64,000 bases of DNA from Chamaelirium japonicum (taxonomy: Eukaryota > Streptophyta > Magnoliopsida > Liliales > Melanthiaceae), in assembly GCA_947650365.1 (NCBI GenBank), contig OX393553.1:36671526-36735525 (forward strand), read 5' to 3'. Shown one piece after another: positions 5,971 through 58,032 of the stretch; position 1 is the first letter of the stretch; the number at the start of each line of letters is the position of its first letter. Position numbers and translations under genes: made by a program. The notes under the pieces are model-generated. The model had not been told where the DNA came from. It worked only from the letters and a program-made list of their open reading frames with translations, and ran no database searches.

Positions 5971-6381
5971 ATGGTGAGGTTACCGTACCTGACAGCCCTG
6001 ACGACCCTCTTCAGCTACGGCCTGCTCTTCGCGTTTGGGCAGCTGAGAGATCTCGTCCGGAAGTTCCTCGATTGGTCCAAATCCCAAAACCTCCAGGTCC
6101 GCGACACCCCCCGCTGTCCCCATTGGGGTTTCACAGATTTCGCAATTTCCTTCTGTACTTCCGTTTGATTTAGATCACTGAAAGAAATTTGGTTTTTTTT
6201 TTGGATTAGGGTTACGCGCCGATCTGTTTGGGGCTCGAGGATTTCTACACCCGACGTCTCTATCTCCGCATTCAGGTGCCTTCATGTCTCATCCTCCTCT
6301 TTTAGGGCTTCTCTTGAGATCTCGCTGGTTTCCTTGGTTTGATATGTTATTTGGATGAAGAAAAGAATTAAGGGTTGTTTC

Positions 6382-6415
<34 letters not shown>

Positions 6416-9400
6416 TTTTTTTTTTTATCATGTTGATCTTTTTATGGTAAAGACTGCTTTTTGGAATTTTTTGAAACTATGACTGTTGAGCCCTTTTGAT
6501 CTCTATACAACCCAATTAGATTAAACAAGGATAACCCAACAATAGATTAGCCTGATGCCTTTTGGTTTGACTCTTTTTGAAGATAGATCTGAAAGAAGAG
6601 GATTATAGTTATTGGGTTCGATTTACTGAACTCGATGCCGAGAAATGATCGGTATTATAGCATGATCTTGCTTAATTACAATAAAATTAGTAAAAAGAAC
6701 AAGCTTGGAGGCAAAGGTAAGTAGTCGGACTTCGAAGAAGGGTTCATCAATCATGGTGACAAAACCCTCTTTCCGACCTAGCTCTTGGAACATTAAGAGC
6801 GCAAAATTTATAGGTGGTTCGAATCCCTAAAGAGGGAATTCATGGTAACCTTTTAATTTGATCTTGAGGCAATCTGAAATTGAGTATGTTGCTCTAATGC
6901 TTGACAACGCATGCAAGTTGTGAAATTTGGTGTTGCTAGAGTAGGTGTCTCCTGAACTAGAGCAATTGATCTGAAGGAGATTGTTGGGTTAGAAGGCCCC
7001 TGAAAATAGTTCAGGCATAGGTAGTTAAAAATATTTTAACACTTGTCTACTTTGGCAGGATTGTTTCGGTCGACCGATTGCAAGTGCACCAGATGCTTGG
7101 ATTGACGTTGTTGAGCGTCAATCGAATGACAATAACAAGACACTCCAGTGAGTTTTACCATTTTCTTTCTCTCTCAAAACTTATGGTTTGCATATTCGTG
7201 ATTAAGTCAATATTTGGGACATTTATAGCGTGAAAGGTGATGCATATCTTTCTTTCTAGGGTTTGACAGAAGATAATAGAAATTCACTTTCATTCTCCAC
7301 CTCCGTTGCTTATTATTGCAATTAGTACTATGTTGCGTGTTTTCTTCGCAGGATGGATTGTAGCTAACTCTCTCTTTAATGCAGACGGACCTCAAACACG
7401 AGTAAATGCCTCAACCTAGGGTCGTACAACTACCTCGGTTTTGCAGCAGCAGACGAATACTGCACACCCCGTGTTATCGAGTCTTTGAAGAAATACTCAC
7501 CAAGCACATGCAGTGTCCGTGTCGACGGGGGTAGGAATTTTCTGCTTATTATGATTGAAAAAAATGCTCTTTCTTGATGTGTTTAGGATTTAGCTGATTC
7601 CACGTGGTATGGTATTAGGAACCACTAAATTGCACACCGACCTGGAGGAATTAGTCGCACGATTTGTTGGAAAACCGGCTGCTATTCTTTTCGGCATGGG
7701 TTATGTGACGAACTCGGCCATTATTCCTGCTCTCATCGGGAAGGTTTGTACAATTGCCAAGGGATTTTATTAGCCTGTGGAGTACATGAAAGTATGAAAC
7801 CTTCAAACATGAGTTTGGATTAACTGACTGCGGCTTCGCTTATCATGATCATATACAGGGAGGGCTGATAATAAGTGATTCTTTAAACCATAATTCAATC
7901 GTCAATGGTGCTCGAGGATCAGGTGCAACAGTACGGGTCTTCCAACATAATAGTAAGTTTCAATACATGGTGCATGACTATGCTCAGATGAACAGCTTTT
8001 TACGGGAAATTTTATAATTTTGCTATTGTGCTTGCAGCTCCGTCGCACTTGGAAGAGGTCCTGAGAGAGCAGATCTCCGAGGGGCAGCCACGTACTCATA
8101 GACCGTGGAAAAAGATAATTGTTATTGTTGAGGGAATCTATAGTATGGAAGGGGAGCTTTGCAAACTTCCTGAGATCATTACTGTCTGCAAGAAATATAA
8201 GGTCTGACCTTCTGATTTCATGCATTTTTGATGATTTGTTCTAAGCTTCTCATTTGTATAGAGTGACTTTGAAGTGGCACTTTTTAAGCTCTAATAGGCA
8301 TAAGCCAATTTGGAGTAGTTTTAAAAGATCACTTAGCAGTGGCAGCCTTATGTTTGTCCTCTGGTTGCACGAGCTTAAATTGCCTAGCCAAAATGGTAGG
8401 TTTCCTTACCCTCCATTCGGCTCTTTAGATTTCTTGGCATGCTCCTCTCTTGCCAAGTCACCTTGGTCTGGTTTTCAGCACTAATCTTAATGGGTTGACA
8501 TCTGGTTTACAGTCGGTCCCAGTCGTCCTTATGGTCCACCCCATAATGATGGGATAAGACATGGATGATGATGGCTTCGAGGGTTGACATCTGGTTTACA
8601 GTTGGTCCCAAATCCCAACTGTCCTTACAGTCAACCCCATAATGATGGGATAAGACATGGATGGTCATGACTTAGCATTGGCACTTTCAGCTCTAATGCA
8701 AGATCAAAAGGCAATCTGGATTTATTTTATCTTTGGGATGCAAAGCATTTGAGGAACTATGGCCAACATTATATCTTCTTTTTGAGTAGGCATACACATA
8801 CTTAGATGAGGCCCACAGCATTGGCGCAATTGGTAAATCAGGCAAAGGTGTTTGTGAGCTCCTTGGAGTGGATCCAGCAGATGTAGACATTATGATGGGA
8901 ACTTTTACGAAATCTTTTGGATCTTGTGGTGGTTATATCGGCGCATCAAAGGTTAAATTTCTCTCCTTTACCACACCATGATTGTTTCTTTAATCATCAA
9001 ATAAACATTCGGGCAAGATTGTGAGCCTAAAAAATCTCTCTCGTCTTCATCAGGAAATAATTCAGTATTTGAAACACACCTGTCCGGCACATCTGTATGC
9101 GACTTCAATGTCACCACCCGCTGTAGAACAAGTTATATCTGCCATTAAGGTGGTTCTTGGAGAGGATGGGTCTAATAGAGGTACGAAGGATTATCCTTGC
9201 TACCTTTTGTTTTTAGCTTCAGCATGTCTGATGCCATGGAAGTTAGATCGACGCTAATGTGTGGCTTGTTTGGTTGTGGCAGGGGCTCAGAAACTTGCAC
9301 AAATTCGTGATAACAGCAATTTCTTTCGATCAGAACTTCAGAAGATGGGGTTTGAGGTTCTTGGGGATAATGATTCACCCGTGATGCCGATAATGCTTTA

Positions 9401-12400
9401 CAACCCTGGAAAAATACCTGCCTTTTCACGGGAGTGTCTCAGGCAGAATGTGAGTATGAAAGTTTTTTTTACAAAGTATAACATGTGTTTCCTACCTTGT
9501 GAATCAAAACTGCATGCAATCCCTGTGGACATAACATCATTGTCGAGAACTCTATCTTAACCTCTTAGACATGTCTGACCACCTTATTTGCTTGTTATAA
9601 CTTCAGTTATTAGAACTTTAACCTTATCTATTACTTGATAGGGCATTTTAATCGTAAAATGCCATAGTTCAACTTCAACATACATTAACCGGTAAAGAAT
9701 TTGTTGGTTGCCCCTTTTTGGGTGTATACTGTGTACATATTTCCATAAGTATTATTGCAACAGGCAGGATAAGCTTGTCATAATCTGTTTATCTAAAGTG
9801 CACATTGATTTGAGAAATTAGGGGTTTTCTTCTTTTTGTGCCTACATCTTTACTTGAAATTGTATTATGGTTCTCTATCATGGTTGCATCTTTTTATTTT
9901 TGTCTGTCTACCCCTAAATTATTAAAGGCTATGCTGTGAAGTATATCCACCTCTGTAGCATTAGCATCCATGATTACCTCTAAAACTATGTTTTATGAGT
10001 CTATTGCTCAATGTTAATACAGTCATATGGCTCTCTTGGCTGAGCTCCCTTATGCAAGGGATCATCTCATGTTTTGCATATTAGAGACAGAGAAAGCACA
10101 CTTGTCCTTCAGGCATGTCTTAAGTGGAGTGCATTCCTTACTTTTTTCCTGTCCTGACCTAATACAATCTTCTATGGATCATGGATAAAAATATCGGTCG
10201 CGGACAAATTATCGGCCGGCCGAAAAACCGGTTCGAACCGGGTGGTACGAACCGGTATCAGTCTGAACCAGGCCATACCGGTGTGAATTGATTTTTGGTT
10301 TCAAAAAAATTTGAAAAAATAACCAAAAAATTCAGAATAATCTAAAATACTGGTTTGTGATGTTTTTTTTCATTAGTAAACTAGTTATAGGTATGAACTG
10401 GTCTTTTTAAGTTATAAAGTCATTGTTTTCACTGTATGATTCTAAATTGTGGAATTTGATATAGTTATTAAATTGTATGTGTTAGATTAGCTTAGTATTA
10501 TGCTTAGGAATTACAAAACACAATTCATGACCATTGCACAAACATGAATTACACAACTAACACGACTACATGAGCCATATTTTACAATTTCACATAATGA
10601 ACACAAATTCATAGTTCTAAGACTCCTGAAATGTTTAACAAATAAAATGCATATCCATATCTATAGATGTAAGCTTTGATGGCATAGATCTGGCCCATAT
10701 CAACATTTTCACCACAATTATTTGGTTTATTTTCAAAAAAAATGCAAAAAAAGAAAAGAAAATTGAAAACCACCCAAATTTGCATGAACCGATCATGCAA
10801 ATTTGGAGATGATGCTTATAGATCTAAGATTTGATGGCATAGATCTGGTCCATTTCAATATTTTCACCACAATTATTTGATTTTTTTCAAAAAAAATACA
10901 ACAAAACAAAAGAAAAAAAAAATTATGAAAACATACCTTCAAATGTGATTTTGATTTTGCAAATCCGAGTTTTTGGCTTCAAATCTTGCAAATCCAGCTA
11001 GTATGGAGCTTCACCTTATTTGGGAATGAAGAAAGATGCCCAAAAAAATGAAACCGGAATGAAGAAACCTCCCAAAACTATGCCTAATACTCGGAACCGG
11101 TTCAAAACTGCCGGTTCGAACCGGTATTTGGTCGAACTGGTCGGTATTTACACGATTTGATCCTCGCGACCAATATCGACTGAATACCAATGCGGTTCGG
11201 TCCGGTTCCCGGTTTGAACCTACCTTAACCTTGCAGTTTCAAAATCCTAAATCCACGACCAGGGATTGTTGCCTTACCAAGAGGCAAGGTTTGAAATTTT
11301 GGTTTCAACCATCATTTCGACCCCTCCAAAAAACGGCATATTTTGTGAAATATTGCGAAATATCAATATCGCGAAATTTGCATTTCGATATATATAAAAA
11401 AAGAAATATTTCAATTTAACTTCACTAATGTTAAAAATCCCTATTGTGGTATCAAAGATTGGATTGCTCTCATCAAAAGGTTATTCTCTACTCCTCCATC
11501 TGGTGTCTTGTTAATCTTCAGTTCTATATTAGCTGTATTACATTAGCATATAGTTTTTCATCCGATGAAGCAATTATGCATAATAACTTGAATGTTTATT
11601 ATCAAAGAAGAACATCTTATGCCTATATCTGCTATTTATAGTATTTTAAAGTCAAAAATATTGTTTAACAACTTGTTATCATACTCTAACGTTACAATCC
11701 TTGGCCGAATTGTGTAGGTTGCTGTCGTGACTGTTGCATTTCCCGCGACGCCGCTTCTCCTTGCCAGAGCTCGCATATGCATATCTGCTTCACACTCCAG
11801 GGAAGACCTGATAAAAGGATTGGAGGTAGATTTCCCCCCTTTTTTTCAATTTTATATTTCTTAGGGCCCACTTATCTTTTACATTCATGATTCATCAGTA
11901 TTCCAGATCACACATGTTAGAGCATCTCCAACGTATGCTCTACATATTTGGAGGCCAAAATCTCCAAATTTGGAGGAGATTCTTTTTTGGAGGGGGTTGA
12001 ACCCCAACACCCAATCCCCCCCCCCCCCCCCCCCCCCCCAAAACAAAAAACAAAGACACATACACACAATTTTAGCCTCCATTTGTTTATTGATTTTAAA
12101 GAATCTGTTCAATTTTAGTCTCATTTTAAAGGTATTGGTGAGATATTTCCAACGTTATAATTTTCGTAAAAAATGGGTTAGTTTAATTAAATTTACATCG
12201 AGTTTATATAATCTCTATTGCCAAAAACTCATATTTTTTTAATAAGTCGCGATAAAACACGCCTTATTCAGTAAACGTTCGCTATGCCACTTTTTCCTGA
12301 TTTTATGTAAAAAGTCATGATTTTCACGTTTTAATCCCGATTAATTACGTTTTAATACCGTCATGTACTGCTCAAAAAACCTGTTGGAACATCTTTATAT

Positions 12401-13035
12401 AAATATGTTCCAAAAATTCTACCGTTTGTTTCTCGACTCTTTCCCTATCTTTCCGACTTTTTCTCGATTTTTTCGATTTCTCCCCTAGCTGATCTTTTTC
12501 CAACTTCCGACTTGGCAACTATGTATATAATTAGTGTATTTTTTACCAAAGGATACAAGTGGAATTTAGATCAAGGAGCATTGACTTTTGAGGGTGTTTT
12601 AAGTAAATAATAGGGATGAATAGTATTTTGCAGGAGGGCTGCATATTCCTCCCAAACCTCCAACTATGGAGCCCAAAAGGGTTGGCTGCATATTTGTTGG
12701 CGGGAATGCAGTCCGGTTGGAGGAGCTCCCACCCCGAAATTGTAGATATGCTGTCCGGTTGGAGAGAGATCTTAGATAATCGTTCGAATCTTTTGCATCC
12801 ACCCAATCTAACTCTGAGCCTCATTTTGGTGTCCTTTTTTTTGTCCAGGTCATCAGCAAAGTTGGTGACCTTGTAGGGATCAAGTACTTCCCGGTGGAGC
12901 CACTCTGAGTCTCATGTTGGTGTGCTTTTTTTTCCCCAGGTCATCAGCAAAGTTGGTGACCTTGTAGGGATCAAGTACTTCCCGGTGGAGCCACCGAACC
13001 CTGATGTCGAAGCCAAACTGAAGAAGCTGGAATAA
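5971..13035 (+). CDS. LCB2: Serine palmitoyltransferase subunit LCB2 (12 exons)
   Basis: Catalytic subunit of serine palmitoyltransferase. With LCB1 at the ER membrane it condenses serine with palmitoyl-CoA, the first step of sphingolipid synthesis. Exons: 5971-6096, 6210-6275, 7059-7147, 7385-7530, 7619-7743, 7859-7952, 8038-8201, 8790-8951, 9054-9180, 9283-9449, 11718-11825, 12940-13035. All introns are GT-AG. The joined frame is open, 1470 nt and 489 aa, the usual plant LCB2 length. An N-terminal hydrophobic segment lies at about residues 7-25 ([16 protein letters not shown]). The pyridoxal-phosphate lysine is K311 in GTFTKSFGS, and DEAHS lies at 276-280. The first ATG in a GC-rich exon matches the family start (MVRLPY). 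Intron 10 (2.3 kb) and intron 11 carry repeats. The last exon's 5' part and acceptor are duplicated just upstream (12811-12901); only the downstream copy gives the full C-terminus. Confidence 0.96.
6385..6415 (+). repeat. Poly-C tract in LCB2 intron 2
   Basis: About 31 uninterrupted C residues followed by a T run, 110 bases into intron 2. Similar C/G homopolymers occur at 12016-12039, 18874-18893 and 63124-63143. Exact lengths may be unreliable in the assembly. Confidence 0.85.
10190..11222. mobile_element. Probable MITE in LCB2 intron 10 (CCGGTTCGAACCGG-rich ends)
   Basis: The left part has ATATCGGTCGCGGAC followed by CCGGTTCGAACCGG. The right part has the rough complement: CGGTTCGAACCGG near 11113, then CGCGACCAATATCG near 11167. 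The centre is AT-rich and contains two diverged copies of a block (about 10668-10745 and 10824-10900) sharing TTTGATGGCATAGATCTGG and TTTTCACCACAATTATTTG. The exact ends and target duplication are unresolved. Confidence 0.5.
11914..12040. mobile_element. Left end of a Tourist-like MITE in LCB2 intron 11
   Basis: TTAGAGCATCTCCAACG at about 11917 is the classic end of a plant Tourist/Harbinger MITE family. It is followed by ATTTGGAGG/CTCCAAATTT words and a 24-base C tract (12016-12039). I could not find a convincing matching right end within the intron, so only the left end is annotated. Confidence 0.45.
12811..12992 (+). repeat. 91-bp tandem duplication of the LCB2 terminal intron/exon junction
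   Basis: Unit 1 is 12811-12901 and unit 2 is 12902-12992. Each has about 38 bases of intron end (polypyrimidine tract and AG) plus the first 53 bases of the last exon. The exon parts look identical; the intron parts differ at about five positions. Acceptors fall before 12849 and 12940. Splicing to the first acceptor puts TGA right after codons for VEPL, replacing the normal C-terminal residues. Splicing to the second gives the full 489-aa protein. Confidence 0.9.
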
Positions 13036-13370
13036 GAAGCAGCAATGAAGCACCTGTGAACAGAAGATGAAGACGGGAAAAAAAAACATTGCATTCTCGA
13101 AAGTGTTTGTTCGTACATAAGCAGATTTTTGTTTCTCAGCCGCGTATTATTATCTTTGATAAACTCTGAATGCGCTCGCTCGTCTGTACAGCTTGTATGG
13201 CAAGGCTTGCTGATCACCCCCCCAGCTGTTGTTTCAGATGTTATTCCTTTACGTTTGCAGTCGGAACTAATTCGAAGTTCTGTAAAATTTATTTTACTTT
13301 CCGTGAAGACATTAATTTCGGTATGTTCGGGTTTGATCTGCTGTCGTGAGAAATCTTGAACTCTTATCAT
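13036..13370 (+). other. Probable LCB2 3' untranslated region
   Basis: Sequence after the LCB2 stop codon shows no coding signal on the plus strand and is moderately AT-rich. The first clear repeat boundary lies farther on, near 13586. The poly(A) site was not identified. Confidence 0.4.
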
Positions 13371-28249: not shown

Positions 28250-29700
28250 ATGTATCAAGAGTATTATGATAAGAGTGTAGATGTTGTAGAGAGAGGAAGT
28301 GAGAGAATATTGTTGAGAGAAAAATTTCATAGAGAAAGTTGTAGATAAAATATTATAGAGAGAATGTGGTATATAAGAAATCATAGAGATAAAGTTGCTG
28401 AGAGAAAATAATGTAGAGAGAAAATGTCATTGAGAGAATGTTGTAGAGAGAATGTCATAGATAGAGTTTTAGACAAAACAAAGATCTAGAAAGAATGTAG
28501 AGACTATTGTAGAGAGAAATGTTGTAGAAAGAATGTTAGAGAAAAAATCCCAGAGAGAATATTATAGAGTTGTAAAGAGAGTAGATGTTGTAGTGAGAGA
28601 AAGCTATAAAGAGAGTGTCCCAGAGATAGTGTTGTAATGAAAATATTATAGAGATAAAATGTCATTGAGTGAAAAATATTATAGAGTGTCGTAGATAGAA
28701 TATCATAGAGAATATGTTAAAGAAAGTATCATAGAGTTGTATTTTCTCTCTACAATATTCGCTCTATAACACTCCACAACTCTCTTTGTATGATATTCCT
28801 CTGCAATATTTCTCTCTAATCTTTCTGACACTACAGCTTTCTTTCTATTATATTTTCTCTCCAATATTTTCTTTATAAACATCTCTGCAGCTTACTCTAT
28901 CTCTACAGAAATCTCTCTATGATACTTTCTCTACAACTTTCTTTATGAAATTTTCTCCTTACAACATTTCTGTTTAATTTTCTTTCTACATCTCTATAAT
29001 ATTTTCTTTTTTTTACATCATTCTTTGTACAATTTTCTCTCCCTCGGTCATTTTCTGTCTATATATTATTCTCCTTGTTGAACTTTCTCTTTCAATAACT
29101 CTACGACATTTTCTCTAGGATATTCTCATCTTTTTTTCTATAAAATTATCTTTATATGACATTCTCTCTTTTGAACTTTCTCTCACTACACATTCTCTCT
29201 ACAATATTCTCTTAATAAGATTCTCTCAACTACTTTCGTTCTCTTTGACATTTTTTCTCTATAATAAGTTGACTACAACATTCTTTTTCTATGACAATCT
29301 TTCTATAACTCTACAAATTTTTTTCTTTGATATGTTCACTCTTGACAGTATTTTCTCTCTATTACTTTCTCTTTCTATGGAACTTTTCAATAATATTTTC
29401 TCTATATCAATTTCTCTTTAGAACATTCTCTCTCTACACATTCTCTCTACAATATTCTCTTAATAAGATTCTCTCAACAACTTTTGCTCTCTATGATATT
29501 CTCTCTATAATATGTTGACTACAACATTCTACAAAATTCTCTCTCTAACACTGTCTCTCTATAACTTGTCTCTAGAACATTCCCTCTATGACTGTCACTC
29601 TTCAACTCTATGATATTTTCCCTTGTATTTATGATGTTCCATTCTCGACACTATAAAACTCTTTATAATATTCTCTCTAATATTTTTTCCACAAAAGAGA
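28250..29700. repeat. GA/CT array that switches strand (inverted array)
   Basis: From about 28250 to 28740 the plus strand carries GAGAGAATGTTGTAGAGAGA-type units. From about 28741 to 29700 it carries the complementary type (TTTCTCTCTACAATATTCTC). The switch is abrupt near 28741. The word family is that of the 530-2560 array. At 29905 the sequence CCAAACGGACCCTTA looks like a TIR-element end, but I did not find the matching left end. Confidence 0.75.
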
Positions 29701-32075: not shown

Positions 32076-32210
32076 TGTAATAACCGGTACTAGTAAATAG
32101 AAAAAAAAAAAAAACTAAATTTTAAAACTAAAACCTAAGCCCAAACCCAAACCCAAACCCGGCCCCAAACCCCATCTCTCTCTCTTTCTTTCTCTCCCTC
32201 TCTCAGCAGC

Positions 32211-32291
<81 letters not shown>

Positions 32292-35200
32292 TCAACTCCC
32301 TAAACCCGAACCCAACCCGATACCCCCTCATTCTCTCCCTCTTTCTTCTCTCCCTCTCTCAGCAACTCACACCCTAGCTGCCGCCCTCCTCCACCCTAGA
32401 CGCCGCCCCTATCCTCTACCCTAGCTGCCGCCCTCCTCCACCCTAGACGCCGCCCCTCCCCTACACCCTAGCAGCCCCCCCTACCCTATCAGCCGATCCC
32501 TTTTTACCCCTTTTTAAAACCCTAGAACCAGCCCGACTTCATCCCCCTCCAATCCCTCCCTCTCTCTCCGACCCCTCCCGATCTCCTCTCTCTCCCCTGA
32601 TTTCTCTTCGTTGTGGTGGACTGTGTGTCGCCGGCCGGAGCAAAGGCAGCCGGCGCCGGAGGGAAATTAGCCGGCTGGAGAAGCCGCGGCCACCACCAAC
32701 GACCCTTTCCCACTGAGCAGCCCAGCCCAATCCCCCTCACCTCTCTCGATCTGTCCTTTTTCCCCGAGGAGCCTCATGCGCACTGTACCGGAGCTCGGGA
32801 GGAGCAGCCGACGCCGGAGCTACCGAACAGGTTAGCACACCTCTGTCATGTTCTTTTTTTTTTTTGTGTGTGTGTGGATGCGACTAACCGCCAGCTCCCC
32901 TTTGTCGCCTTCCATTTGATCGCGGCCATGGCTGCCAGTTGTGCAGCCGGCGAGGTCCGACCCAGCCAGACTGGGTCCTCTACCGGCCACCCTACCACCA
33001 CCCAACCAGCATGAACCAGACCCCCTGTTACCTCTTGCTCCCGCTGCGACGGTCGTCAGCGGCTTTGCTGCCGGTGGACGGACACCGGGTCTATATCCCG
33101 CCGGTCGTCTTCTTTTTTCTTGTGATCAGCCCGACCACCCCGACTATGATTCCTATGGCCCGATCAGGCTGCGATTCTCTTTCCTGACCCTTCGCCGACG
33201 TCGTCTATGAATGGTCTCGATCGCTACCCCGGCCATGTTTGATCCCTCGATGCCCATGATGCTTGATCCGACCATTTCTCATGTTTCTCTGAGTCTTTTA
33301 AAACCCTTTGTGATGCATGATGGTGAGATGATGATAGGGGTGATAGGGTTAGTGGTGCCCCATCGAGCCAGTACGTGTATTGGGTTCGGCACGCCGCCTA
33401 AGATAATGGATCGATTCATTTGCTAACACGGCTTCCACTGTAATTGGCCATAGGATCAAACCATAATGACCATCCCTAAGGCTTTAACGACCATTGGTCG
33501 CGTGTATAATCCTGCGCCGATTACCTCGTCATGAACAAAGCCATCGCCCTATTTTGCACGGCAATTTGGAGCTTGCTCCAATAGCAATAGTGACCAACCC
33601 CGGATTCGACCAAGCTTTGTAATTGTGCCTGTAAACTCGTACCCCACGTAAGCTCGAGGTAACTCTGGCGTATGACGAATCAAGCCTTAGACCTTAACTT
33701 GAGCCAGTGTTCGTTGCAAGTGAAAGTCGAACTGAGCATTCCTTTTATCTAAACCCTGACTTAGATGCCCTTAAAATAATAAATAGGCAATATGATTCCT
33801 TGCTTGCCAGATTTTGTTCGTGATGATCCAATGGAGGCAGAGCAGAGGTGAATTACCGGGAGTCTGCACGCATTTACCAGGTGACATCTACTTCCCTTGC
33901 ATGGTCTTTAATAGTGGGAAATGAGAATGACTAAAGGCAGGTATCCATAACGCTGCATGCGGGTCCCGCCGGACATCGTCGCATGTGGTCGAGTGGACCC
34001 CGCCTTGCATGCGGAGTCGCGAGTCCGGCGACACATGCTTAATAATATTAAAAATTAAATAATAACCTTTCTGCTGATTGTTTGGACACCGTAAGTAGGA
34101 ATTCCCTTAAGTTTTGAAAATTAATAATTAAATAATAATTATCGGGTCCCATCCTCCTAAGTGGAGTGTGGAGACCCGGGCACACGGGAATACGGGTGAG
34201 AGTAACTGTTGTGAGTGCGGTGCGAATCCCGGGGTAAAACGTCAAAGTTATTTTATTATTATAATACTCAATCATGTGGGAAGATTGGATTCCGTGCGCG
34301 CAAGGGTCGTGAACCACCTGGCATGCACAGCCAAAGACCAGTAAGCTAAGGGGTCACGGGCAATGGTTGTGGTAAAGCCAATAGGAGTAGCCCTCTAGTG
34401 GGGATTGGCCTAGCAACTCTGTCCCGGGGTAGTTGAAGTCCCCAAAGTAACGCAAGTGGGGTGGTAGAGCTCCACTATGAAGGACAGAAAATCCCTTATG
34501 ATAATACAGGGTTCACTTTAGGATATATGGTTTATATTGTAATTCATAATTAAGTACTGTAGTATATCTAACGGACTGTATGGTAGATAACCTAGTGACA
34601 GTAGGAATTGCATGTGAACATAGATTACTGGTAGACTTAGGTTAACCTTCTGTAAACTTCATTATATCGTCTCATATTATTAAAGACTATTAGGATGTCA
34701 CTAGCCATTAATTTGGCTAATCTCCCAATTTTCCATTGGGGGCTACTCTTTCTCACGAGTAGACTCTCCTGCAGGTCCGGAGGTTCGAGAGTAGCAGTTG
34801 GAGGCCGGAGGCAGTTTTAGGATTTCAGTAGTATTTTATTTTGGTATGTAGTTTCGTGGTAATGTAATGGGTAGATTTTGTATAAGAATCATTTAGTTTA
34901 AGATTAGTTAATTGTTAGAAGCATTGATACAGCTGAAGTTATTTTGGGTAGGCCTCTCCTTAAGGCCACAAGCCTAGGGTAGCTCACAGTGAAAATATAA
35001 GTATCTAAATGACCTAATTGACTAGCCCTATAAATAGGACCCCTAGACCAGTGTGCTGAGTGTCAGAGAGGGTGAGATTCCTAGCTCGCCGTCGGAGGCT
35101 TGAGCCTCGTGCTCCCTTAGAGGTATTCCTATTAGCATGTGATGGCGCCGACATGCCACACATGCTGAGAGGATAACCCGATTGAAGGTCGAGCGTGATC

Positions 35201-35432
35201 ATCTCTCTGTCGAAAAAAATTTATCTCTCAGCTTTCTTTTAACATAAAAATATTTTCATAAAAATTAAGTTTTAAAATATTCCGTGTTTCACCCTTCTCC
35301 TTCTTAAATTTTGAGAGAGTCACAGCCCAGTAAGAAACCCTTATTGGTATAGATAGGCGACCAGACCCTCAACCATTTTGTTTTCCTCATTTCACACCCC
35401 AGGGATCAGTTCCAGATTTCTGGGGCGTGACA
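32076..35432 (+). repeat. 5' LTR of the gag-only retrotransposon
   Basis: 3357 bp, TG...CA ends, with a pyrimidine-rich start including (CT)n at about 32213-32288. The two LTRs share small open frames that are conserved only because the LTRs are copies, and I do not regard them as genes. A TATA box lies late in the LTR (35028-35036), so U3 is unusually long, nearly 3 kb. Confidence 0.92.
35028..35036 (+). promoter_or_regulatory. LTR TATA box (CTATAAATA)
   Basis: CTATAAATA in the 5' LTR, about 400 bases before the LTR end; the same motif occurs at 42721-42729 in the 3' LTR. It is the likely promoter for the retrotransposon transcript, with R and U5 following. Confidence 0.65.
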
Positions 35433-35533: not shown

Positions 35534-36481
35534 ATGGCGGGTACTAGAAGAGGTAACGGAGCGAGTTCGTCCTCTGAACCTGACGGTACAACGAGGATGA
35601 TGGAGATGCTCCAAGGAATGGCCACCATGGTTCAACAGTAGCAGACAGCGGCCCAGCAGCAGACTGCTTTAGCTTTGACTGCCCTTGCCCAGGCACAGGC
35701 TCGTCAGCTAGCAGAGGGCGAGCATCAAGGGAGACTTTTAAAGGACTTCAAGGCGATGGGACCTCCAACTTTCAAGGGAGAGCCGGACCCCTTGCAGGCA
35801 GATCGATGGTTTCAATAGATAAAGAAGGTCCTTGACGTTTTGGAGGTCGTCGGAGACCGACGAGTCGCACTTGCATCTTACCAGTTTGAGGCAGAGGCTG
35901 ACTTCTGGTGGCAGTCGATCTTGCGTTCAAGAACAGCTGATCGAGGAGCTATCTCCTGGTTAGAGTTCGAGGAACTTTTTCGGAGGAAGTTCTTTCTGGT
36001 GACTGTGCAACACCGGATGGAGATGGAGTTTCTGGCTCTTTCCCAAGGGTCTCTTACTGTGGCACAGTATGAGGTCAAATTTTCAGAGCTTGCGAGGTAT
36101 GCACTGCACCAGGTGGTGACTGATGCCCGGAGGGCAAAGTGTTTTGAGCATGGACTAACGTCAGAAATCAGGGGTAGGGTTACAGCCTTCTTAGGTCAAT
36201 CCTATGAGGAGGTAGTTACTCGAGCGTTGGCCATTGAACAAGAGTTGGAAGAATCTCGCAAAACCCAAGAGCAACATCAGGTAGACAACCCTAGTAAAAG
36301 GTGTAAGATTTCATCCGGACCACCAGATGATGGACAAGGGAAGAAGAATGGAGGGCTACGACTTTGCTATCGCTGCAAGCGGGAAGGACACATTCGCAGC
36401 ACTTGTCCTTTGGGAAAAATATGCTTCAATTGTGGACAAGGAGGTCATATGAAGAAGGACTGTCCCGATTCACGTGTATGA
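35534..36481 (+). pseudogene. Retrotransposon Gag with two CCHC knuckles, two in-frame stops
   Basis: From ATG at 35534 the frame continues to the stop at 36481 (about 315 codons) but is broken by TAG at 35639-35641 and 35816-35818, both after CAA/CAG-rich context. The capsid-like part has FEAEADFWW and FRRKFF, followed by the usual EF..L.QG..TV..YE..F..L..YA pattern. The C-terminus has two zinc knuckles, CYRCKREGHIRSTC and CFNCGQGGHMKKDC. The 213-aa remainder from 35840 is open. This family of Gag binds RNA and forms particles. Whether this copy makes protein is doubtful because of the two stops. No pol frame follows. Confidence 0.88.
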
Positions 36482-37146: not shown

Positions 37147-38245
37147 GCGGTTGGTTTCGCAGTTCCTGTTGGAACTTGCGGCAGAGCGTGCACTATTTCT
37201 TCGGAAACTTTGGCAGCTGGCAGAGCTTGCACTATTCCCAATTGGAACTTTGGCAGCTAGTTACGTAGTTCCTGTTGAAACTTGCGGCAGAGCGTGCACT
37301 GTTTCTTCGGAAACTTTAGCAGCTGACAGAGCTTGCACTATTCCCAATCGGAACATTGGCAGCTAGTTACGCAGTTCCTGTTGGAACTTGTGGCAGAGCG
37401 TGCACTGTTTTTTCAGAAACTTTGGCAGCTGGCAGAGCTTGCAATGTTCCCAATCGGAACTTTGGCAGCTAGTTAAACAGTTCCTGTTGGAACTTGCGGC
37501 AGAGCGTGCACTGTTTCTTCGGAAACTTTGGCAGCTGGCAGAGCTTGCACTGTTCCCAATCGGAACTTTGGCAGCTAGTTACGCAGTTCCTGTTGGAACT
37601 TGCGGCAGAGCGTGCACTGTTTCTTCGGAAACTTTGGCAGCTGGCAGAGCTTGCACTGTTCCCAATCGGAACTTTGGCAGCTAGTTATGCAGTTCCTGTT
37701 GGAACTTGCTGCAGAGCGTGTACTGTTTCTTCGGAAACTTTGGCAGCTGGTAGAGCTTGCACTGTTCCCAATCGGAACTTTGGCAGGTAGTTACGCAGTT
37801 CATGTTGGAACTTGCGGCAGAGCGTGCATTGTTTCTTCGGAAACTTTGGCAGCTGGCAGAGCTTGCACTGTTCCCAATCGAAACTTTGGCAGCTAGTTAC
37901 GCAGTTCCTGTTGGAACTTGCGGCAGAGCGTGCACTGTTTCTTCAGAAACTTTGGCAGCTGGCAGAACTTGCACTGTTCCCAATCGGAACTTTGGCAGCT
38001 AGTTACGCAGTTCATGTTGGAACTTGCGGCAGAGCGTGCGTTGTTTCTTCGGAAACTTTGGCAGCTGGCAGAGCTTGCACTGTTCCCAATCGGAACTTTG
38101 GCAGCTAGTTACGCAGTTCCTGTTGGAACTTGCGGCAGAGCGTGCACTGTTTCTTCGGAAACTTTGGTAGCTGACAGAGCTTGCATTGTTCCCAATCGGA
38201 ACTTTGGCAGCTAGTTACGCAGTTCCTGGTGGAACTCACGGCAAA
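37147..38245 (+). repeat. 106-bp tandem array inside the retrotransposon
   Basis: About ten units of 106 bp. Each unit consists of three related sub-blocks: a 32-base block starting GGAACTTGCGGCAGAGCG, a 41-base block starting GGAAACTTTGGCAGCTGG, and a 33-base block starting GGAACTTTGGCAGCTAG. All three begin GGAA(A)CTT and carry GCAG, so the array arose from a shorter ancestral repeat of about 35 bases. Units differ by only a few bases. Diverged copies extend upstream to about 36960. The 98-aa open frames in it are by-products of the periodicity. Confidence 0.93.
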
Positions 38246-39581
38246 GCGTGCACTGGCCAGATGGCAGTGATGTCAAGTTGGAACTGAGATATTTGACTAC
38301 TGGATAAATGATTAGTGCCTATGTCAGGGACATTTTCTATATATATGGAATTTGGAAATACTTTATCGGTTAGGAAGAATATTCATTGTTTAGTTGTTTC
38401 ACCCTGGTTTGTTTTAGTTGCTTACCGGATCTAATAACTTTTATCGCCATAGTTCTCCTAACCAAATTTTCATTGGTACTTAGTGGTTCGGAATTATGTT
38501 AGTTTCTCCGTGGTCCTTGTCGTGCTAAGTCGTCTCATTTGGGTCTAGCTAGTTTTGTCTAGATTTGCTTCAAGTTGTTTCCAATGATCTCGGTCCTCTT
38601 ATTCTCACTCTTTTCATATTTCTCAGGTCTCTGTCTAACTAACTCGTTTCATTTAGGGTAAGGATTTAATACTTTGCGATAGTTGGCCATTAGGCTTCTA
38701 GTATGCGATTTCTTCAGAGTTGCTTTAGTTTGGGACTAGTCACCTAGTTGTATAGTGTGTGTTATGTCGTATCTTAGTTTTCGGCTTCTTTCTGTTCTTT
38801 AGTGAGTTTTCTCCTTACCAGGTTCGTGTACCATAGTGTACCCTTTAGAAGGTTTCCAAGTCGTACCCCAATAGCATAGTTGGGTATACTGGTGTTGATT
38901 TGTTTCAACGAGTATCAATATTTTCAATTCATCGTTATTTTCCCCTTACTCTTGTTAGTATATGGCGTAATTCTGTTATCTTGGATTCAACATCGTATCG
39001 GTTAGTCAGTATGTATGTCGGGATGTCCGATTTGTATCTTAGTTATGTTTTCTTCGTAAGTTAATGACCTAGTAGTGGTGGTATAAGTGTAGACGTGTTT
39101 GCTCCAGAGAGGAATCTTATAGGATTTAAGTCTAGGGGTACTAGTTCGAGTTATCTAGTTGTCTTCAATTCGGTTCTATAGGTGTATGAGCATAGGTTTA
39201 TATGTTTCCTCGTTAGTATCGTTAGTGGAGAATGTCTCGTGATTCTGTTTCGTGAATCCAATTGCTACCTCACTTTTGAATAAGTCTATAGTTGTTAGGA
39301 CCATGATTGGACATTATGCCTTGTGAGAGCTCCACGAGCGCCTAATGTTCTAATCCTATCCTAATAATTATGTGACTCAATTGTATAAGTTCGGGTAGTA
39401 GTCTAGCCAGTGGCAGAGTCTTTTTCTTTTTGGTATGATTGATGTATTGATTGACCTTCTCGAGGGCAGTATCAGAAAGAATATAGTACCAGTTGTGGAT
39501 GAGCTTTCATTACTTTGGTGGTAGGATTGGTAGAATTGTACCCTCAGTTTAGTAATTAAATTTTTGGGACGAAAATTCTAT
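38246..39581 (+). other. Retrotransposon interior without coding signal
   Basis: About 1.3 kb of T-rich sequence between the tandem array and the polypurine tract. It has many stops in all frames and no recognisable pol motif. Confidence 0.7.
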
Positions 39582-39788: not shown

Positions 39789-39876
39789 TCAACTCCCCTA
39801 AACCCGAACCCAACCCGATACCCCCTCATTCTCTCTCTCTTTCTTCTCTCCCTCTCTCAGCAGCTCACTCTCTCAC

Positions 39877-39911
<35 letters not shown>

Positions 39912-42900
39912 AACCCCCCCAAAACCCGACGCTCTCTCTCTCTCTCTCTCTCTCGGATCTCACACTCTCTCTCGGATTCACCCATTCCCCCCCCAAACCG
40001 AACCCGATCTCCCCCCTATACCCTAGCAGTCGCCCGCCGCCCCCTAGCAGCCGCCCCCCCTCATCCCGAGCCGGATTTCTCGCCGGCCGCCGCCGCCGCC
40101 CCTATCCTCTACCCTAGCTACCGCCCTCCTCCACCCTAGTCGCCGCCCCCCCTCCTACACCCTAGCAGCCCCCCCTACCCTATCAGCCGATCCCTTTTTA
40201 CCCCTTTTTAAAACCCTAGAACCAGCCCAACTTTATCCCCCTCCAATCCCTCCCCTCTCTCCGACCCCTCCCGATCTCCTCTCTCTCCCCTGATTTCTCT
40301 TCGTTGTGGTGGACTGTGTGTCGCCGGCCGGAGCAAAGGCAGCCGGCGCTGGAGGGAAATTAGCCGGCTGGAGGAGCCGCGGCCGCCGCCAACGACCCTT
40401 TCCCACTGAGCAGCCCAGCCCAATCCCCCTCACCTCTCTCGATCTGTCCTTTTTCCCCGAGGAGCCTCACGCGCACTGTACCGGAGCTCGGGAGGAGCAG
40501 CCGACGCCGGAGTTACCGAACAGGTTAGCACACCTCTGTCATGTTCTTTTTTTTTTTTGTGTGTGTGTGGATGCGACTAACCGCCAGCTCCCCTTTGTCG
40601 CCTTCCATTTGATCGCGGCCATGGCTGCCAGTTGTGCAGCCGGCGAGGTCCGACCCAGCCAGACTGGGTCCTCTACCGGCCACCCTACCACCACCCAACC
40701 AGCATGAACCAAACCCCCTGTTACCTCTTGCTCCCGCTGCGACGGTCGTCAGCGGCTTTGCTGCCGGTCGACGGACACCGGGTCTGTATCCCGCCGGTCG
40801 TCTTCTTTTTTCTTGTGATCAGCCCGACCACCCCGACTATGATTCCTATGGCCCGATCAGGCCGCGATTCTCTTTCCTGACCCTTCGCCGACGTCGTCTA
40901 TGAATGGTCTCGATCGCTACCCCGGCCATGTTTGATCCCTCGATGCCCATGATGCTTGATCCGACCATTTCTCATGTTTCTCTGAGTCTTTTAAAACCCT
41001 TTGTGATGCATGATGGTGAGATGATGATAGGGGTGATAGGGTTAGTGGTGCCCCATCGAGCCAGTACGTGTATTGGGTTCGGCACGCCGCCTAAGATAAT
41101 GGATCGATTCATTTGCTAACACGGCTTCCGCTGTAATTGGCCATAGGATCAAACCATAATGACCATCCCTAAGGCTTTAACGACCATTGGTCGCGTGTAT
41201 AATCCTGCGCCGATTACCTCGTCATGAACAAAGTCATCGCCCTATTTGGCACGACAATTTGGAGCTTGCTCCAATAGCAATAGTGACCAACCCCGGATTC
41301 GACCAAGCTTTGTAATTGTGCCTGTAAACTCGTACCCCACGTTAGCTCGAGGTAACTCTGGCGTATGACGAATCAAGCCTTAGACCTTAACTTGAGCCCG
41401 TGTCTGTTGCAAGTGAAAGTCGAACTGAGCATTCCTTTTATCTAAACCCTGACTTAGATGCCCTTAAAATAATAAATAGGTAATATGATTCCTTGCTTGC
41501 CAGATTTTGTTCGTGATGATCCAATGGAGGCAGAGCAGAGGTGAATTACCGGGAGTCTGCACGCATTGACCAAGTGACATCTACTTCCCTTGCGTGGTCT
41601 TTAATAGTGGGAAATGAGAATGACTAAAGGCAGGTATCCATAACGCTGCATGCGGGTCCCGCCGGACATCATCGCATGTGGTCGAGTGGACCCCGCCTTG
41701 CATGCGGAGTCGCGAGTCCGGCGACACATGCTTAATAATATTAAAAATTAAATAATAACCTTTCTGCTGATTATTTGGACACCGTAAGTAGGAATTCCCT
41801 TAAGTTTTGAAAATTAATAATTAAATAATAATTATCGGGTCCCATCCTCCTAAGTGGAGTGTGGAGACCCGGGCACACGAGAATACGGGTGAGAGTAACT
41901 GTTGTGAGTGCGGTGCGAATCCCGAGGTAAAACGTCAAAGTTATTTTATTATTATAATACTCAATCATGTGGGAAGATTGGATCCCGTGAGCGCATGGGT
42001 CGTGAACCACCTGACATGCACAGCCGAAGACCAGTAGGCTAAGGGGCCACGGGCAAGGGTTGTAGTAAAGCCAATAGGAGTAGCCCTCTAGTGGGGATTG
42101 AACTAGTAACTCTGTCCCGGGATAGTTGAAGTCCCCAAAGTAACGCAAGTGGGGTGGTTGAGCTCCACTATGAAGGACAGAAAATCCCTTATGATAATCC
42201 AGGGTTCACTTTAGGATATATGGTTTTTATTGTAATTCTTAATTAAATATTGTAGTATATCTAACGGACTGTATGGTAAATAACCTAGTGATAGTAGGAA
42301 TTGCATGTGAACATAGATTACTGGTAGACTTAGGTTAACCTTCTGTAAACTTCATTATGTCGTCTCATATTATTAAAGACTATTAGGATGTCACTAGCCA
42401 TTAATTTGGCTAATCTCCCAATTTCCCATTGGGAGCTACTCTTTCCCACGAGTAGACTCTCCTGCAATTCCGGACGTTCGAGAGTAGCAGTTGGAGGCCG
42501 GAGGCAGTTTTAGGGTTTCAGTAGTATTTTATTTTGGTATGTAGTTTCGTGGTAATGTAATGGGTGGATTTTGTATAAGAATCATTTAGTTTAAGATTAG
42601 TTAATTGTTAGAAGCATTGATACAGCTGAAGTTATTTTGGGTAGGCCTCTCCTTAAGGCCACAAACCTAGGGTAGCTCACAGTGAAAATATAAGTATCTA
42701 AATGGCCTAATTGACTAGCCCTATAAATAGGACCCCTAGACCAGTGTGCTGAGTGTCAGAGAGAGGGTGAGATTCCTAGCTCGTCGTCGGAGGCTTGAGC
42801 CTCGTGCTCCCTTAGAGGTATTTCTGTCAGCATGTGATGGCGCCGACAGGCCACACATGCTGAGAGGATAACCCAGTTGAAGGTCGAGCGTGATCATCTC

Positions 42901-43127
42901 TCTGTCGAAAAAAAATTATCTCTCAGCTTTCTTTTAACATAAAAATATTTTTATAAAAATTAAGTTTTAAAATATTATGTGTTTCACCCTTCTCCTTCTT
43001 AAATTTTGAGAGAGTCACAGCCCAGTAAGAAACCCTAATTGGTATAGATAGGCGGCCAGACCCTAAACCATTTTGTTTTCCTCATTTCACACCCCAGGGA
43101 TCAGTTCCAGATTTCTAGGGCGTGACA
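39596..43127 (+). repeat. 3' LTR of the gag-only retrotransposon
   Basis: 3532 bp, about 175 bp longer than the 5' LTR. The extra length is mostly additional CT/C-rich sequence at about 39860-40090 (ACTCTCTC blocks and GCCGCCGCC). Elsewhere only scattered single-base differences were noticed, such as CTTAATAA contexts and CGCATGTGG. Confidence 0.92.
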
Positions 43128-57532: not shown

Positions 57533-58032
57533 NNNNNNNNNNNNNNNNNNNNNNNNNNNNNNNNNNNNNNNNNNNNNNNNNNNNNNNNNNNNNNNNNNNN
57601 NNNNNNNNNNNNNNNNNNNNNNNNNNNNNNNNNNNNNNNNNNNNNNNNNNNNNNNNNNNNNNNNNNNNNNNNNNNNNNNNNNNNNNNNNNNNNNNNNNNN
57701 NNNNNNNNNNNNNNNNNNNNNNNNNNNNNNNNNNNNNNNNNNNNNNNNNNNNNNNNNNNNNNNNNNNNNNNNNNNNNNNNNNNNNNNNNNNNNNNNNNNN
57801 NNNNNNNNNNNNNNNNNNNNNNNNNNNNNNNNNNNNNNNNNNNNNNNNNNNNNNNNNNNNNNNNNNNNNNNNNNNNNNNNNNNNNNNNNNNNNNNNNNNN
57901 NNNNNNNNNNNNNNNNNNNNNNNNNNNNNNNNNNNNNNNNNNNNNNNNNNNNNNNNNNNNNNNNNNNNNNNNNNNNNNNNNNNNNNNNNNNNNNNNNNNN
58001 NNNNNNNNNNNNNNNNNNNNNNNNNNNNNNNN
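57533..58032. other. Assembly gap (500 N)
   Basis: Exactly 500 N residues, which suggests a placeholder of unknown true length. The bases on either side are inverted copies of each other (GCGATCTAGTG left, CACTAGATCGC right). Confidence 0.98.

Follow-up and report, generated by a model that had tools for sequence, protein, structure and literature searches.

The LCB2 gene, which encodes subunit 2 of serine palmitoyltransferase, carries a 91-bp tandem duplication across the border between intron 11 and exon 12, and both copies contain an intron end, an AG and an exon start (Table 1). The duplication is real in the assembled sequence. As to its consequences, we favor a reading to which we give even odds (probability about 0.5): the duplication arose locally, both acceptors are used, either product works, and the change is near neutral. 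A tandem duplication joined through a 2-bp microhomology (AC) would have copied the last part of intron 11 together with the start of exon 12. Copy 1 retains what would be the complete native acceptor with the branch point CTAAC, a T-rich tract and CAG, and copy 2 has the tract and CAG with a branch-point candidate that is weaker. Splicing would probably occur at both acceptors, with substantial and perhaps predominant use of the upstream one, which would give an LCB2 of 477 residues that should keep all positions ordered in the Arabidopsis enzyme and lack a variable tail; the downstream one would give the usual enzyme of 489 residues. As either product should work, the duplication would be tolerated and close to neutral, and it is probably a tolerated accident. 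In this account the role of CTAAC as branch point, the use of the acceptors, the activity of the enzymes and the neutrality of the change are all inferred from the sequence.

Table 1. Features of the LCB2 gene around the duplicated splice acceptor. Positions are those of the window, the whole 64-kb stretch of DNA analyzed; a slash marks a splice border.
Feature	Position	Strand	Description
LCB2 (serine palmitoyltransferase subunit 2) gene	5971..13035	+	12 exons; 489 aa via the distal acceptor; from spliced translation, PDB and Pfam matches
Exon 11	11718..11825	+	Ends GAG/gtagat
Intron 11	11826..12848	+	1023 nt with the proximal acceptor; 1114 nt with the distal one (to 12939)
Likely native branch point CTAAC	12808..12812	+	Branch A at 12811; straddles the duplication breakpoint; fits the YURAY consensus
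Duplication copy 1	12811..12901	+	38 nt of intron 11 end and 53 nt of exon 12 start
Alternative last coding segment	12849..12908	+	Ends ...VEPL, TGA at 12906-12908
Hypothetical new intron	12861..12939	+	79 nt; AAA/GTTGGT (copy 1) to acceptor 2; would keep the frame and add 4 aa (VISK)
Duplication copy 2	12902..12992	+	38 nt of intron end (CTCAT, branch A at 12914; without YTRAY) and 53 nt of exon start
Exon 12, distal acceptor	12940..13035	+	Stop TAA at 13033-13035

The gene model rests on 12 exons placed between the gene borders from the reading frame and GT-AG intron borders. In a phmmer search of the PDB, the top solved-structure match of the encoded protein is 'Long chain base biosynthesis protein 2a' (7yjk_B; E = 5.8e-280, 932 bits), a protein that has the same length of 489 residues as the distal-acceptor product. 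The alignment is gap-free over residues 1-478, a full-length likeness to a characterized plant LCB2, and on this match the gene is identified as a plant LCB2, with a coding model that, judged by sequence, is complete. The domain of PLP-dependent enzymes is present, as Pfam PF00155 matches residues 101-460 above its cut-off. In the alignment to 7yjk_B, a lysine stands at query residue 311 within GTFTKSFG, the PLP-binding position; PLP is described as linked to Lys311 in the Arabidopsis LCB2 structure (PMC10058238). A search for LCB2 relatives with a degenerate 10-residue protein pattern gave 0 hits in prokaryote contigs and 0 in viral contigs, as expected there.

The initial annotation had described a 91-bp duplication with two acceptors 91 bp apart, and repeat detection bears this out. 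Tandem Repeats Finder reports 12811-12994 with a period of 91, 2.0 copies and a score of 333, self-BLAST of the region gives 94.6% identity over 93 bp, and the two acceptor CAGs end at 12848 and 12939. With E = 1.4e-36 in the self-BLAST, chance is not an explanation. The head-to-tail copies are identical at 86 of 91 positions, and within the 64-kb window the region 11601-13100 has no further copies besides the duplication itself and poly-C matches. Copy 1 is preceded by ...CAATCTA and copy 2 by ...GGAGCC, each followed by ACTCTGAG. The match extends by two bases (AC) beyond copy 2 and the other bases flanking the joint differ, so that the joint is one of 2-bp microhomology.

The five mismatches (12819, 12825, 12833, 12843 and 12844 in copy-1 coordinates) all lie in the intronic part of 38 positions, whereas the exonic part of 53 has none, a clustering with P = 0.011 in a post hoc test, or P = 0.028, likewise post hoc, when the two adjacent mismatches are counted as one event. 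This pattern could fit constraint on both exon halves, but also conversion, or an unequal allelic exchange in which the two alleles had the same exon and different introns. It also resembles allelic intron differences beside an unchanged exon, which brings up an assembly artefact, with a head-to-tail joining of two haplotypes or of a stretch that was wrongly resolved. Long poly-C runs, 31 C at 6385-6415 in intron 2 and 24 C at 12016-12039 in intron 11, point to possible difficulty in assembly or sequencing, as does a run of 500 N. Against an artefact, this N run, the only one in the window (57533-58032), lies 44 kb from the duplication, the joint is a clean microhomology, and the same gene holds other near-tandem duplications: 8492-8577/8581-8673 in intron 7 (84%) and 10662-10762/10817-10916 in intron 10 (90%). 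We thus regard a misassembly as most improbable. Such duplications, which in introns 7 and 10 have units of about 90-100 bp, thus recur in LCB2, and the one described here stands out among them because it includes an acceptor.

Which of the two acceptors would the spliceosome choose? Both copies carry a T-rich tract and CAG, and both have CTCAT 25 nt upstream of the acceptor. CTAAC is present only before copy 1, as the breakpoint cuts through it. Its branch A is 37 nt from acceptor 1 and 128 nt from acceptor 2; the plant branch-point consensus is given as YURAY and the usual branch distance as 18-40 nt (PMC3017782). In the stretch about 15-50 nt before its AG, copy 2 lacks a YTRAY. Such a motif is found at this distance in seven of the ten other LCB2 introns and is missing from three; in the LCB2 introns at large, YTRAY occurs at 34% and CTAAC at 1.6% of positions, counts in which positions overlap and true sites are included. 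Because copy 2 is without the likely native branch point, a point that the initial annotation missed, the upstream, seemingly extra acceptor may be the main or better site. The rule that the first AG not too near the branch point is chosen is described in the same work on Arabidopsis (PMC3017782). However, branch points were assigned here from the consensus alone, and with three of ten other introns lacking YTRAY in this range, acceptor 2 may be fully competent. Scores from a rough matrix (acceptor 1, 9.8; acceptor 2, 3.8) make for a weak preference for acceptor 1, as the matrix was built from ten sites whose own leave-one-out scores spread from -9.2 to 12.7.

Published results on acceptor hexamers (PMC12480690) point both ways. 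The strongest acceptor hexamer is given there as TTGCAG, from which, counted by hand, GTCCAG of copy 1 differs at two positions and CCCCAG of copy 2 at three; in the same source, the worst intron was given a pyrimidine tract and a consensus branch point, with negligible effect unless the hexamers were improved (PMC12480690). The CTCAT of copy 2 has a precedent in RPT5b intron 7, an Arabidopsis intron in use for which CUCAU (CTCAT) has been proposed as branch point (PMC3017782), so that copy 2 is not disqualified by its motif. RPT5b is a parallel in a further respect, in that its intron has two competing acceptors and two competing branch-point candidates, CUAAC and CUCAU among them; there, however, a SNP and a 10-nt shift are described, as opposed to a 91-bp duplication in LCB2 (PMC3017782).

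The same features could support exclusive use of the distal acceptor, with copy 1 as a silent remnant in intron 11 and an ordinary LCB2 as the outcome. Such splicing would preserve the length of LCB2a in 7yjk_B, and copy 2 is equipped for it with its own CTCAT at 25 nt, of the kind proposed as branch point in the Arabidopsis intron (PMC3017782), a long T tract and CAG. Copy 1, however, contains all three of these elements and CTAAC besides, and comes earlier in the transcript; moreover, the exon halves of the two copies are identical over 53 bases. We consider sole use of the distal site unlikely, though more probable than the other rivals to the favored reading, in which both acceptors contribute.

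What would the two messages encode? Spliced translation confirms the earlier claim that the first acceptor (exon start at 12849) leads to a stop after VEPL and 477 residues and the second (12940) to the complete enzyme of 489. The products are identical through residue 476 and then diverge into L and a stop versus a tail of 13 residues. Several lines of comparison place this tail outside the aligned and ordered part of the enzyme. The cryo-EM model of Arabidopsis LCB2a is reported to span residues 1-36 and 41-475 (PMC10058238). In query residues, the phmmer alignments end at 478 for LCB2a (7yjk) and, for proteins named 'Serine palmitoyltransferase 2', at 472 (6m4n), 471 (7k0i) and 470 (8c80), the first two of which we take to be the human and the third the yeast enzyme; the Pfam match ends already at 460. 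From these end points, the lost tail is, as far as sequence comparison and the reported model extent go, variable, poorly conserved and unmodeled in Arabidopsis, and both forms of LCB2 should be active. A function of the tail in plant LCB2 is conceivable, given that 7yjk_B likewise runs to 489 residues.

The early stop lies in the apparent last coding exon, and its use would lengthen the 3' UTR by 127 nt. Nonsense-mediated decay is not expected for a stop in the last exon, and by this rule the short message would plausibly escape. To this extent the initial annotation, which had proposed escape from decay and an enzyme with a changed C-terminus, holds: there are two coding outcomes, and the escape is plausible. 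A functionally distinct enzyme is unlikely, because the residues that change come after the part that is ordered in the known structure. This also bears on a regulated switch, in which tissue or condition would select the acceptor and thereby LCB2 forms with different regulation. The identity of the exon halves beside differing intron halves would agree with such a switch; against it stand the position of the tail outside the part aligned and reported as ordered, and the post hoc nature of the clustering test with its weaker value for a single adjacent event. We regard regulated switching as far-fetched.

A duplication of this type is already known in kind, and by analogy the LCB2 case would be a further plant example beside one in potato. 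In the potato RdRp gene PGSC0003DMG402000361, an intron arose when a segment spanning the border of intron 1 and exon 2 was duplicated in tandem; its donor is a GTAAG within the exon half of the upstream copy and its acceptor that of the downstream copy, as supported by 106 RNA-seq reads (PMC4974935). As described there, the potato gene resembles LCB2 in being a plant gene with a duplicated intron end and start of the next exon, acceptor and pyrimidine tract included, and in having copies that differ at a few sites, ten in potato and five in LCB2. The cases differ in that the putative branch site was duplicated along in potato, whereas in LCB2 the breakpoint cuts the likely branch point. Furthermore, potato has an activated GTAAG donor with RNA-seq support (PMC4974935), whereas LCB2 has no GTAAG. 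Unlike the reported potato event, the LCB2 duplication falls in the last exon and brings with it a frameshift and a stop. The general model of introns arising from duplicated segments also applies in part: the LCB2 unit contains CAG/GT and could thus provide a GT as donor and, at a distance of 91 nt, an AG as acceptor, but the model has an exonic segment duplicated, whereas the segment in LCB2 spans an existing acceptor. Among the papers found on LCB2 alternative splicing there is apparently nothing about this event, and among those found on duplicated acceptors and two-step splicing apparently nothing closer than the potato case.

Could the duplication in LCB2 likewise have made a new short intron? 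After joining at acceptor 1, a cryptic donor in copy 1 would be spliced to acceptor 2, much as the potato gene acquired its intron when a border of this type was duplicated (PMC4974935). The exon half of copy 1 has six GTs, of which four keep the frame, and three of these give introns of 91, 79 and 67 nt, all longer than the 59 bp that a survey in Arabidopsis reports as the minimum among verified introns (PMC6161759); the fourth would give 46 nt, which is probably too short. With CAG/GTCATC at the acceptor itself as donor, the intron would measure 91 nt, and two-step splicing would restore the exact message for 489 residues. The best candidate, AAA/GTTGGT, scores 6.9 compared with 1.7-9.1 for the 11 donors of LCB2 itself (leave-one-out), in a matrix that is based on just these 11 sites; CAG/GTCATC scores 3.3 and CTT/GTAGGG -0.3. 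None of the six GTs is part of a GTAAG, unlike the donor described in potato, and an exon of 12 or 0 nt between two introns would be demanding for the splicing machinery. We thus consider a new intron quite unlikely, and very unlikely in its specific form of a nascent spliceosomal intron of 79 or 91 nt, nested and removed after the first, where the 91-nt case implies a zero-length exon.

LCB2 is an essential gene. If both acceptors are used, as we favor, it would show how a frame-shifting duplication can be harmless in such a gene when it adjoins a dispensable tail, and would offer a natural experiment on the choice of the spliceosome between near-identical acceptors, of which mainly the presence or absence of the likely native branch point tells one from the other. 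Intron gain may also be seen here at an early stage. Should the plant use just one of the acceptors, the duplication would be an ordinary intronic one.

Further repeats are found in the gene and in the window. Intron 11 holds a probable MITE-like insertion at 11920-12771, with TTA beside its outer ends; the ends consist of GAGCATCTCCAAC at 11920-11932 and of inverted related sequences at 12716-12728 and near 12760-12771. A transposon as cause of the duplication was considered because of these ends, the inverted ones of which lie about 40-83 bp upstream of copy 1, and was dropped, as no link to the breakpoint was found. Downstream of the gene, direct repeats of 3.3 kb (32146-35432 and 39797-43127) are 94.4% identical. 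Between them lies an ORF at 35819-36481 with two CCHC-like motifs, which by eye appears gag-like, and the whole is probably an LTR retrotransposon with long LTRs. Inside this presumed element, 37154-38255 is an array of a 106-bp unit with 10.4 copies and 94% matches. Finally, 594-2389 is a 1.8-kb tract of degenerate repeats rich in purines (ATATTATAGAGAGAGAAA), to which a diverged copy in inverted orientation near 28740-29563 corresponds.
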